Source of the DNA: Dyella nitratireducens | Lineage (GTDB): Bacteria > Pseudomonadota > Gammaproteobacteria > Xanthomonadales > Rhodanobacteraceae | Reading direction: 5' to 3' | Assembly (NCBI RefSeq): GCF_014642835.1 | Contig: NZ_BMJA01000001.1 | Coordinates: 1-64,000 of the forward strand | Length of the DNA stretch: 64,000 nt | Shown here: positions 10,836-29,241 of the stretch, in pieces | Numbering within the stretch: position 1 is the stretch's first letter | Layout: each line of letters starts with the position of its first letter | Translations under genes and position numbers: made by a program | Notes under the pieces: model-generated | The model's input: only the letters and a program-made list of their open reading frames with translations | Databases searched by the model: none | What the model was told of the DNA's origin: nothing

Positions 10836-10978
10836 GATGATGATCTCCTAAAATGTGAGGCCATTTTCATCTTGTCTTATTACTCACGCAATAGCATTTG
10901 TTAATTTAAGATACTAAAGTTATTATTATAATTGTCATTCATGTTTTATTTATTTTAAAAATTCAGAGCTCTCCAGCA

Positions 10979-14738: not shown

Positions 14739-14810
14739 AGGTTGGGGTGCAAACCCCAACATCATTGCGTTAGGGAGATGGCGGTGTTGGGGTTTGCACC
14801 CCAACCTACG
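14739..14810. repeat. REP-like palindrome pair, family B
   Basis: AGGTTGGGGTGCAAACCCC at 14739 is followed, 25 bases on, by its reverse complement ending CCCCAACCTACG at 14810. Each half is itself a hairpin. Related copies are at 21584-21868, 25789-25862 and 29168-29241. Confidence 0.85.
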
Positions 14811-25788: not shown

Positions 25789-25862
25789 GTAGGTTGGGGT
25801 GCAAACCCCAACATAGTGGTATGCATGGACATGGCGATGTTGGGGTTCGCACCCCAACCTAC
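25789..25862. repeat. REP-like palindrome pair, family B
   Basis: GTAGGTTGGGGTGCAAACCC begins the left unit (25789-25814); the right unit (25837-25862) is its near-exact reverse complement ending CCCCAACCTAC. Located between prfB and the CPBP protease gene. Confidence 0.9.
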
Positions 25863-26707: not shown

Positions 26708-28378
26708 TTACGGCGTTGCTTCAAGCGCATGTGCATGCACATCACGCACCGCACGTCCTGATGGATCGGCCATCGCCGCAAACGCGGGGTCCCACGCCAA
26801 CGCGGCAGGCGACGAGCATGCGATCGACTTGCCGCCTGGCACTGTCGCCGCACACGCTTCGCCGGGGAAGAACTTCTCGAAGATGCGGCGATACAGATAT
26901 GCCTCTTTCGTGGCCGGCGTGTTGAACGGATAGCGCGATGCAGCGGCGGCAAATTCACGATCGCTGACCGCCTGCTCGGCGTGCGCTTTCAAGCCATCGA
27001 TCCAGCCGTAGCCCACGCCATCGCTGAATTGCTCCTTCTGCCGCCACAGGATCAATTCCGGCAGCGCACCCGCGAAGGCTTCGCGCAGTACGGCTTTTTC
27101 GATACGCCCCTTGCCCGCCATCTTGTGCTGGGCGTCCATGCTCATGGCGGCTTCCATGAATTCCAGATCCAGGAAGGGCACGCGCGCTTCGACACCCCAG
27201 GCCATCATCGATTTGTTTGCGCGCAAGCAATCATAGCTGTGCAAGGCATCGAGCTTGCGCACGGTTTCTTCATGGAAAGCTTCAGCCGACGGTGCTTTGT
27301 GGAAATACAGATAGCCGCCGAAGATTTCATCGGAACCTTCGCCGGACAGCACCATCTTCACGCCCATCGCCTTGATGCGGCGTGCGAGCAAGTACATGGG
27401 GGTGGAGGCACGAATGGTGGTGACGTCATAGGTTTCGATATGGCGAATCACTTCCGGCAGCGCGTCTAACCCTTCCCAGAAGTTGTAGATGAAACCGTGA
27501 TGCACGGTGCCGAGTGCATCGGCAACGACTTTCGCAGCAACCAGATCAGGCGAGCCTTCCAGACCGATGGCAAAGGAATGCAGGCGCGGCCACCAGGCTT
27601 CGCTGCGGTCATCGTCTTCCACACGCTCGCGTGCGAAGCGGGCCGCGCAGGCGGCGACCAGCGAAGAATCCAAACCGCCAGAAAGCAGCACGCCATACGG
27701 CACGTCCGTCATCAACTGACGATGCACGGCCTGTTCGAATGCCTGGCGCAGTTCGCCGGGGCCATGGCCTTTGGTCGCTGAATACTCACGCCACGGACGC
27801 TGGTAGTAGCGCTGCAATTCGCCCGTGATGCTGTCGTATGCGTGGCCCGGCGGAAACGGTGCGACGTCGGCGCAAACACCCACCAGTGCCTTCATTTCCG
27901 AGGCGACGCACAGCCGGCCTTGCGCATCATGCCCCCAATACAGCGGACACACGCCCATGGGGTCGCGCGCGATCAGATAGCGCTTCGCATCGCCATCCCA
28001 CAGGGCGAACGCAAAAATGCCGTTGAGCTTGTTGAGGAAATCCGCGCCGTGTTCGCGGTAGAGCGCGTTGATCACTTCGCAGTCGGAGCCGGTGGTGAAG
28101 TCGTAGCTGCTGTGCGCGCGCAGCTCACGATGGTTGTAGATCTCGCCGTTCACCGCCAGCGCCAGGTGTCCATCGCGAGACCGTAGCGGCTGCGCGCCGC
28201 TGGCCGGATCGACGATGGCCAGGCGCTCGTGCACCAGGATCACCCCGGCATCCACGAACACCCCGCTCCAATCCGGCCCGCGATGGCGCTGTCGTTGCGA
28301 CAACTCCAGGGCTAGCAGGCGTAACGCAGCCAGATCGTCGCCCGGCTGAAGATCGAACATTCCAAAGATGGCGCACAT
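26708..28378 (-). CDS. asnB: Asparagine synthetase B, glutamine-hydrolysing
   Basis: A 556-residue enzyme making asparagine from aspartate with glutamine and ATP. The N-terminal glutaminase domain begins with the nucleophile Cys2 (MCAIFGMFD) and has HRGPDWSG and NGEIYNH; the synthetase domain has the PP-loop VLLSGGLDSSLVA and SGEGSDEIFGGYLYF. Length matches E. coli AsnB (554). AAAGGA stands 9 bases before the start. An Asn-rich leader frame and a terminator lie immediately upstream, which points to attenuation control by charged tRNA-Asn. Confidence 0.97.
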   Translation of the reverse strand: MCAIFGMFDLQPGDDLAALRLLALELSQRQRHRGPDWSGVFVDAGVILVHERLAIVDPASGAQPLRSRDGHLALAVNGEIYNHRELRAHSSYDFTTGSDCEVINALYREHGADFLNKLNGIFAFALWDGDAKRYLIARDPMGVCPLYWGHDAQGRLCVASEMKALVGVCADVAPFPPGHAYDSITGELQRYYQRPWREYSATKGHGPGELRQAFEQAVHRQLMTDVPYGVLLSGGLDSSLVAACAARFARERVEDDDRSEAWWPRLHSFAIGLEGSPDLVAAKVVADALGTVHHGFIYNFWEGLDALPEVIRHIETYDVTTIRASTPMYLLARRIKAMGVKMVLSGEGSDEIFGGYLYFHKAPSAEAFHEETVRKLDALHSYDCLRANKSMMAWGVEARVPFLDLEFMEAAMSMDAQHKMAGKGRIEKAVLREAFAGALPELILWRQKEQFSDGVGYGWIDGLKAHAEQAVSDREFAAAASRYPFNTPATKEAYLYRRIFEKFFPGEACAATVPGGKSIACSSPAALAWDPAFAAMADPSGRAVRDVHAHALEATP

Positions 28379-28423
28379 GATGGGATTTCCTTTAGCTCGC
28401 TGGTAGAGTGAAACGCTAGAAAC

Positions 28424-28452
28424 AAAAGGGCCCGCACTTGGCGGGCCCTTTT
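28424..28452 (-). terminator. Putative attenuator upstream of asnB
   Basis: On the transcript AAAAGGGCCCGC (28452-28441) pairs with GCGGGCCCTTTT (28435-28424) across a 5-base loop, followed by TTTT-G-TTT, a rho-independent terminator. It lies 25 bases after the stop of the Asn-rich leader frame and 45 bases before asnB. A short CGGGCC inside the end of the leader frame (28492-28487) can pair with GGCCCG in the left arm, giving a competing antiterminator. Confidence 0.8.
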
Positions 28453-28477
28453 GCGTGTGTCTGGTTGCTGCTTACTT

Positions 28478-28606
28478 CTACACGCCGGCCCGTCCGCGGT
28501 TGCGGTTATTGTTATTGGCGTTGTTATTCAGGACTGTTGCAGCCACGGCAGCGCGCGCCGCGAAGGCGGCGTGGTTGGCGAGAAGGCTGACAAAGTAGGT
28601 GTGCAT
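28478..28606 (-). CDS. Asn-rich leader peptide of asnB (attenuation)
   Basis: A 42-codon frame from ATG 28606 to TAG 28480-28478. Residues 27-36 read NNNANNNNRN, eight Asn in ten codons (AAU and AAC mixed); the first 26 residues are hydrophobic and alanine-rich, and the tail is RGRAGV. It is followed by the terminator and asnB in the same direction. In classical leaders (his, thr, leu) a run of the regulated amino acid makes the ribosome stall when its tRNA is uncharged, which prevents the terminator. No clear Shine-Dalgarno is seen; TTTAGT at 28619-28614 could be a -10 box placing the transcript start at or near the ATG, i.e. leaderless translation, but that is a guess. Confidence 0.75.
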   Translation of the reverse strand: MHTYFVSLLANHAAFAARAAVAATVLNNNANNNNRNRGRAGV

Positions 28607-28704
28607 GCGGTCGACTAAAACACAAGTCCGTACCGCGCGCAACGGTTACAACTGTTACCTAGGCCGGCCGTCCTGCCGGGTTTGGGACCGGCCAACGTAC
28701 CGGC

Positions 28705-29070
28705 TTATGTCGATGACACCCAGCGCAGGGCCTCATCGAGCTCGGCGTCCGCAAACAACCTGAAGTGCATGGGCATGGCGAAGCCGAACATGCTGGACAT
28801 TACACGTACCCAGCCCACGTCGGTGACCAGTGCCGTGCGTTCCCAGCCACTGATGTGGCGGAAACCCAGCTTTACATCGTCCCACATCGCACCGGGCGCG
28901 AAGCCGGTGAAATCGTCGCCGATGTGGATCACCAGGCGCAGTTTGCGATTCAGCGCGAAGGCTGCCTCGATGTCCGGCACCATGATGTTTTCGTAGTCTT
29001 GCGCGGTGACCAGGCCGCGCATGCGGAAGCCGAGAATACCGGCGGGGAGCGAAGGGAGTTGCTCGATCAT
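28705..29070 (-). CDS. SpoIIAA-like STAS/SEC14-type protein
   Basis: A 121-residue soluble protein starting at ATG 29070 with AAGGAG 7 bases upstream. It matches the SpoIIAA-like (DUF3478) family: GILGFRMRGLVTAQDYENIMVPDIEAA at the start, LRLVIHIGDDFTGF in the middle, and FRLFADAELDEALRWV at the end. Members are predicted lipid- or nucleotide-binding; function is not settled. Transcribed toward the asnB leader region. Confidence 0.8.
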   Translation of the reverse strand: MIEQLPSLPAGILGFRMRGLVTAQDYENIMVPDIEAAFALNRKLRLVIHIGDDFTGFAPGAMWDDVKLGFRHISGWERTALVTDVGWVRVMSSMFGFAMPMHFRLFADAELDEALRWVSST

Positions 29071-29167: not shown

Positions 29168-29241
29168 GTAGGTTGGGGTGTAAACCCCAACATGATGATG
29201 TCAATCAAGGTAGCGATGTTGGGGTTTGCACCCCAACCTAC
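29168..29241. repeat. REP-like palindrome pair, family B, overlapping recJ stop
   Basis: GTAGGTTGGGGTGTAAACCCC starts at 29168 and its reverse complement ends CCCCAACCTAC at 29241. The recJ stop TAG (29240-29238) is the TAG of the GTAGG end of this repeat. Confidence 0.9.

Follow-up and report, generated by a model that had tools for sequence, protein, structure and literature searches.

What does a short reading frame crowded with asparagine codons do in front of a gene for asparagine synthesis? In the window, by which we mean the whole 64,000-nt stretch of DNA analysed, such a frame, an intrinsic terminator and asnB follow one another on the minus strand, and an earlier note on this DNA had read the three as an attenuator. 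Comparative tests support that reading, and from them we infer the regulatory response itself. On the sequence evidence, asnB is very probably under the control of a ribosome-mediated attenuator of transcription that responds to the charging of tRNA-Asn, with the transcript predicted to begin at the leader ATG or right beside it.

An asparagine-rich frame and a terminator precede asnB

The leader frame runs from an ATG at 28606 to a TAG stop at 28480-28478 and encodes the peptide MHTYFVSLLANHAAFAARAAVAATVLNNNANNNNRNRGRAGV; the earlier description of the frame and its eight Asn residues matches base for base (Table 1). Asparagine is specified at codons 27, 28, 29, 31, 32, 33, 34 and 36, by three AAT and five AAC codons. 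Among 100,150 overlapping stop-free ten-codon windows counted in six frames over the 64 kb, exactly one holds eight Asn. At least six Asn are found in seven of these windows, six of which overlap the leader run, with the seventh at 10945. The codon cluster for the amino acid of the downstream gene that is required of leader attenuators is present here (8 Asn in 10 codons), and an Asn-rich frame precedes asnB in 93 of 93 related regions described below.

The terminator lies 23 nt behind the leader stop. Its stretch (28456-28424) folds with −22.1 kcal/mol (z −4.54), and none of 200 shuffles is as good. The hairpin lies about 40 nt before the asnB ATG at 28378; the earlier note had likewise placed a rho-independent terminator ahead of asnB. 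The product of the gene scores 853.9 bits against NF006949 (asparagine synthase B; cut-off 499) and is 97% identical to AsnB of Dyella acidisoli. The intrinsic terminator that the class requires between leader and structural gene is seen both in the window fold and, by automatic scan, in most of the related loci.

Elsewhere in the window, a repeat, GGGGTGAAACCCCAACAT, occurs in four copies at three mismatches (14745-14762, 25797-25814, 29176-29193 and 29216-29233), with none in 100 shuffles. The two copies near 29.2 kb lie in opposite orientation, 40 bases apart.

Table 1. Features of the asnB leader region in the window
Feature	Position	Strand	Basis
Predicted −35 element TTGCGC	28637..28642	−	Promoter scoring; similar TTGC-like box across loci
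Predicted −10 element TTTAGT	28614..28619	−	17 nt from the −35 element; position relative to ATG
Leader peptide frame, 42 codons	28478..28606	−	Window sequence; recurs in relatives
Regulatory codons 27-36 (8 Asn, one Ala, one Arg)	28499..28528	−	Window sequence and codon-window count
Putative protector strand 1, ACGCC, covering the Ala codon inside the Asn run	28517..28521	−	Alignment and fold
Putative protector inner hairpin CCGC-AACC-GCGG	28494..28505	−	Alignment and fold
Partner strand of the putative outer protector stem, GGCGT	28482..28486	−	Alignment and fold
Predicted antiterminator strand 2a, CGGGCC	28487..28492	−	Pairing tests and window fold
Predicted antiterminator strand 2b, GCGTGT (last codons and first base of stop)	28480..28485	−	Second-helix comparison and fold
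Predicted antiterminator strand 3b, ACACGC box in spacer	28453..28458	−	Second-helix comparison and fold
Predicted antiterminator strand 3a, GGCCCG, within terminator left arm	28442..28447	−	Pairing tests and window fold
Intrinsic terminator hairpin, then T-run	28422..28454	−	Automatic scan, alignment, folding
Shine-Dalgarno-like AAAGGAAA of asnB	28386..28393	−	Sequence
asnB, asparagine synthase B (glutamine-hydrolysing)	26708..28378	−	NF006949 match

The arrangement recurs in relatives

Relatives were drawn from the best 80 of 142 asnB matches in named records and from the loci of the best 30 matches among further genomes. Together with the window this gave 111 loci. After removal of two with too little upstream sequence (L041 and L054) and of one member from each of 14 duplicate pairs, 95 distinct regions remained. 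The sample is one of near relatives. The 93 regions counted below have an AsnB at least 74% identical to that of the window, and all 93 carry an Asn-rich frame before asnB. The best 12 codons hold at least four Asn in 89 of them and three in the other four (L055, L056, L057 and L066), the maximum being eight. A small number of the 93 come from metagenome bins whose labels are imprecise (Proteobacteria, Gammaproteobacteria and one Candidatus Eremiobacteraeota). Outside the 93 stand two records without an Asn leader, labelled Rhodococcus maanshanensis (L051, NZ_BCXA01000018.1; AsnB 83% identical) and Prescottella subtropica (L058, NZ_SKCH01000010.1; 78%), whose AsnB may reflect either transfer or contamination.

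The automatic scan places a terminator 19-31 nt behind the leader stop in 85 of the 93 loci, whereas the distance from terminator to asnB in these 85 ranges from 25 to 222 nt. For the other eight (L017, L024, L033, L039, L048, L073, L074 and L078) the scan missed or misplaced the hairpin; a GC-rich hairpin was recognised by eye, with a poor T-run in at least three (L024, L074 and L078), and these loci were left out of the pairing tests (n=85). Relatives lacking the Asn run or the terminator, which the earlier note had named as evidence against its reading, were thus not encountered in this set.

Leaders of the Dyella type show mostly AAT/AAC exchanges at the first few Asn codons, a pattern that fits translation of the run, and later Asn positions are frequently substituted. 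Among the relatives compared, the peptide shows little conservation apart from the Asn run and the segments that take part in pairing.

Predicted mutually exclusive pairings of the leader end

The proposal that CGGGCC in the last leader codons can pair with GGCCCG of the terminator arm is confirmed by the complementary minus-strand sequences and by the fold. The predicted antiterminator is longer than this, since a second helix, new here, joins strands 2b and 3b. The antiterminator stretch of the window folds with −21.7 kcal/mol (z −3.35 against shuffles). The class calls for an antiterminator that excludes the terminator and overlaps the leader end, and the pairing potential for one is conserved, with the second helix the weaker part. 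Also new is a candidate protector fold that would use the Ala codon inside the Asn run. This fold (1:2) recurs in the alignments with few compensatory changes and is weaker than the antiterminator at equilibrium; alone in the window it is no better than shuffles (z −0.30).

Compensatory change was scored in three clade alignments, of the Dyella type (n=27), the Rhodanobacter type (n=31) and Xanthomonadaceae (n=17). Because registers differ, alignment A1 omits L055 and A2 omits L025, L028, L042, L046, L053, L056, L057 and L102. For protector and terminator together, with most cells in the terminator, 94.1% of cells are paired in the Dyella type and 91.0% in the Rhodanobacter type. Two-sided changes affect four of these pairs in the former (three of them in the protector, whose inner hairpin has many unpaired cells and is 81.5% paired) and six in the latter (five in the terminator, one in the protector). 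The antiterminator is 98.1% paired in the Dyella type and 99.6% in the Rhodanobacter type, with zero two-sided changes in either; its core is nearly invariant within Rhodanobacteraceae and so cannot covary there. In Xanthomonadaceae, two-sided changes occur in five of nine antiterminator pairs (86.4% paired) and in eight of 14 terminator pairs (90.5% paired). Shuffle comparisons, whose significance the relatedness of the sequences can inflate, returned none of 500 shuffles as high for the Xanthomonadaceae antiterminator; for protector and terminator in the Rhodanobacter type, the count of two-sided pairs was reached by 28 of 500 shuffles and the number of pair types by 499 of 500. The earlier note had looked to an alignment of related genomes for covariation. 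The Asn run, the terminator and the pairing are indeed kept. Compensatory changes occur in the terminator and, in Xanthomonadaceae, in the antiterminator, which is nearly invariant within Rhodanobacteraceae.

When leader tails and arms were swapped between arm types among the 85 loci, 213 of 20,000 permutations were as good, a modest signal because the arms share CCCGC or a similar core. In the second helix, Dyella-type leaders join GCGUGU to ACACGC, each pair being formed in 21-27 of 27 sequences, and Rhodanobacter-type leaders join CGCGUA to UACGCG, with each pair in 18-31 of 31; compared with composition shuffles locus by locus, it reaches p<0.05 in only 19 of 85.

Predicted consequences of ribosome position

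In the mechanism that we infer, transcription would start at or next to the leader ATG and a ribosome would load on the emerging 5′ end. With asparagine plentiful, this ribosome would run to the stop and cover strands 2a and 2b, such that the terminator forms. With asparagine short, it would stall on Asn codons 27-34 and leave 2a and 2b to pair with 3a and 3b, which would sequester the left arm of the terminator and allow RNA polymerase to read into asnB.

Partition functions were computed for the 85 loci, with the leading edge of the ribosome assumed to lie 13 nt from the A-site codon and the stall value taken from the best Asn codon. The predicted probability of the antiterminator is about 1.0 at the best Asn stall, versus a median of 0.22 with the ribosome at the stop. 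The difference between stall and stop exceeds 0.5 in 77 of the 85 loci, or in 73 when the mean over the Asn codons is used. For the window, the antiterminator is predicted to be left free by stalls on codons 27-34 and to be masked by a stall on codon 36 (0.04).

Without a ribosome the antiterminator also wins at equilibrium, with a median of 0.99 and values below 0.5 in 10 of the 85 loci. Superattenuation is therefore not predicted for an untranslated leader, and either the protector would need to exert its effect kinetically or a leader without translation would simply be in the on state. An Asn attenuator that depends on leaderless initiation and reads through by default when no ribosome is present is conceivable, although we think it rather unlikely. 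Such a device would report both the charging of tRNA-Asn and the ability to start leaderless messages, and stress on leaderless initiation would also switch asnB on.

The proposed signal fits the route by which Asn-tRNA is apparently made. An asnS match above the cut-off is present in the genome, and gatB has no match there in a search that was positive in 12 of 14 control genomes. With AsnRS present and GatB absent, the substrate for Asn-tRNA should be free asparagine, which is what AsnB produces; under charging by AsnRS only, free asparagine would be the right signal.

A predicted promoter positioned for a leaderless start

The earlier note took the missing Shine-Dalgarno sequence and a possible −10 box as a hint of a leaderless start, and this suggestion is now strengthened. 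The TTTAGT box ends 8 nt before the ATG, which puts the predicted start point at or next to it, and a TTGC-like box recurs from locus to locus some 35 nt upstream of that ATG. This conserved candidate promoter, new here, predicts leaderless initiation. A promoter score of at least 6, for a TTG-type −35 element combined with a −10 hexamer, is found at the leader ATG in 98% of 91 loci versus 2.6% of 1616 control positions, figures that are partly circular because the ATG was chosen partly by an upstream TTG[CT] and the −10 end was allowed only 6-9 nt before it (L051, L057, L058 and L078 were left out). Independently of this −10 window, a Shine-Dalgarno-like motif precedes only two of 91 leaders (six of 92 with a looser motif) and 77 of 93 asnB genes.

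Distribution of the leader and alternative explanations

A covariance model, R1, was built from alignment A4 (39 of 84 distinct sequences). Of 147 genomes of the same family searched, 113 have a nearly full-length AsnB (in two pieces in G028), and R1 matches 21-383 nt before asnB in 97 of these. The 16 without a match are exactly those whose AsnB is 63-68% identical, and reading of their upstream DNA revealed no Asn leader. Lenient tallies (E ≤ 0.001: 138 of 147 and 246 of 299 genomes) consisted mostly of weak terminator-like matches and were discarded.

These patterns bear on whether the hairpin might be a plain terminator with an incidental Asn frame, and asnB served by a promoter behind the hairpin. 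A hairpin alone is no proof of attenuation, and the interval before the asnB ATG leaves room for a start. However, the Asn run, the stop-to-terminator spacing and the pairing of the leader tail persist from genus to genus even as the distance further downstream changes, the divergent asnB genes of the family lack the leader in 16 of 16 cases, and the promoter-like boxes point at the leader ATG, all of which make this arrangement very unlikely. We give slightly less credence still to a main product that acts in trans, either the terminated RNA or the Asn-rich peptide, with control of asnB secondary. The trp attenuator of S. meliloti offers a precedent, since according to PMC7298713 it releases an sRNA and a peptide for which action in trans is claimed. 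Against this, little of the asnB leader peptide is conserved beyond the segments noted above, and among the matches listed all 96 same-family matches with E below 1e-8 lie before asnB.

An attenuator of asnB thus remains the preferred reading, and its distribution extends beyond one family. Strong R1 matches in the order fall in families f1, f2 and f3. We take f2 to be Xanthomonadaceae, judging from named loci, and the Xanthomonadaceae evidence before asnB comes from reading those loci. Beyond f1 and f2, 58 hand-chosen genomes of the order contain 28 nearly full-length asnB loci: four with an Asn leader, 23 without and one that is uninformative (L178, mis-framed). The four are all three f3 loci, by reading, and one f8 genome (G218; L166/L174), in which a divergent Asn leader, MFAIYNTINTTNNRLLRSAGSF, and a terminator precede asnB. 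Its −10-like ATAGT ends about 25 nt before the ATG, and the f8 leader is therefore apparently not leaderless. A class-wide R1 search (369 genomes, E ≤ 1e-6) gave matches in 10 genomes, of which four belong to Lysobacterales. Ten loci were read, from five of the six non-Lysobacterales genomes (not G506) and from five second-site matches, and no Asn leader before asnB was found in them; nine are terminator-like sequences behind genes, in one case a tRNA gene.

The tenth, L205 (G206:C31:75800-77500, minus strand, family f2; E 2.4e-8), holds a leader rich in Leu, Val and Ile that ends in LRSLLVLVLISQPTGAGRASV and is followed by a terminator, and is apparently another leader attenuator of similar build. 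In the genome of the window itself, no comparable leader stands directly before ilvC or hisG; ilvC seems to lie inside an operon, so the absence there says little. The hisG gene (L208, C3, 550728-551288 upstream) is closely preceded by a frame of about 110 residues (MKRRSIDPETPEESARLSLCRALLSLKNAEEMN...), not a His leader peptide, which we take to resemble TrpR/YerC-type regulators.

Relation to known regulatory leaders

Attenuators with his and other amino-acid leaders are known in proteobacteria, and were reportedly studied by Vitreschak et al. in 2004. T-boxes control asparagine genes in Firmicutes. Like Thr_leader, Trp_leader and Leu_leader of Rfam, the asnB element combines a leader frame with regulatory codons, helices predicted to exclude one another, an intrinsic terminator and a biosynthetic gene. 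It differs from proteobacterial amino-acid leaders in its Asn codons, its asnB target, its 42 codons and its predicted leaderless start. No Rfam family reaches its gathering threshold at the leader; sub-threshold scores (gathering in brackets) are 26.7 bits for Thr_leader (55), 22.6 for Trp_leader (41) and 15.6 for Leu_leader (50).

The Firmicutes T-box would respond to the same signal, tRNA-Asn charging, through an RNA that binds tRNA and has no leader peptide, but a T-box or other tRNA- or ligand-binding riboswitch at this asnB is scarcely credible, given that neither the Rfam matches at the gathering threshold nor the nine in 28350-28750 with E values of at most 5 include a T-box, and that the recurring content of the leader, about 185 nt long, is a frame with Asn codons.

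The predicted start has counterparts elsewhere. According to PMC7298713, the RNA of the S. meliloti trpLE(G) attenuator (rnTrpL/peTrpL) begins with the leader-frame ATG, as is predicted here; that system differs in sensing tryptophan, in its 14-residue leader and in belonging to an alphaproteobacterium. In Streptomyces lividans, leuL, trpL, ilvL, metL, thrL and alaL stand before amino-acid genes and most are described as transcribed leaderless; of eight leaders listed in PMC8079986, none is for asparagine and several lack a clear terminator. Among the openly accessible literature matches listed on asparagine and asnB, on attenuation by leader peptides, on leaderless initiation and on the genera Xanthomonas and Stenotrophomonas, we found no Asn-specific leader attenuator, and the words asparagine and asnB are absent from the main texts of PMC2965389 and PMC1262725.

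Implications

The element is probably a conserved, asparagine-specific, ribosome-mediated attenuator of asnB with a predicted leaderless start, through which asparagine would most likely be made only when asparagine is low. Leader-peptide attenuation would thereby gain asparagine, in an order that includes Xanthomonas and Stenotrophomonas and with about a hundred natural variants. A covariance model would help annotators to find a leader gene that is easily missed, and the leaderless design would offer a clear, testable model of the coupling between the first ribosome and RNA polymerase.
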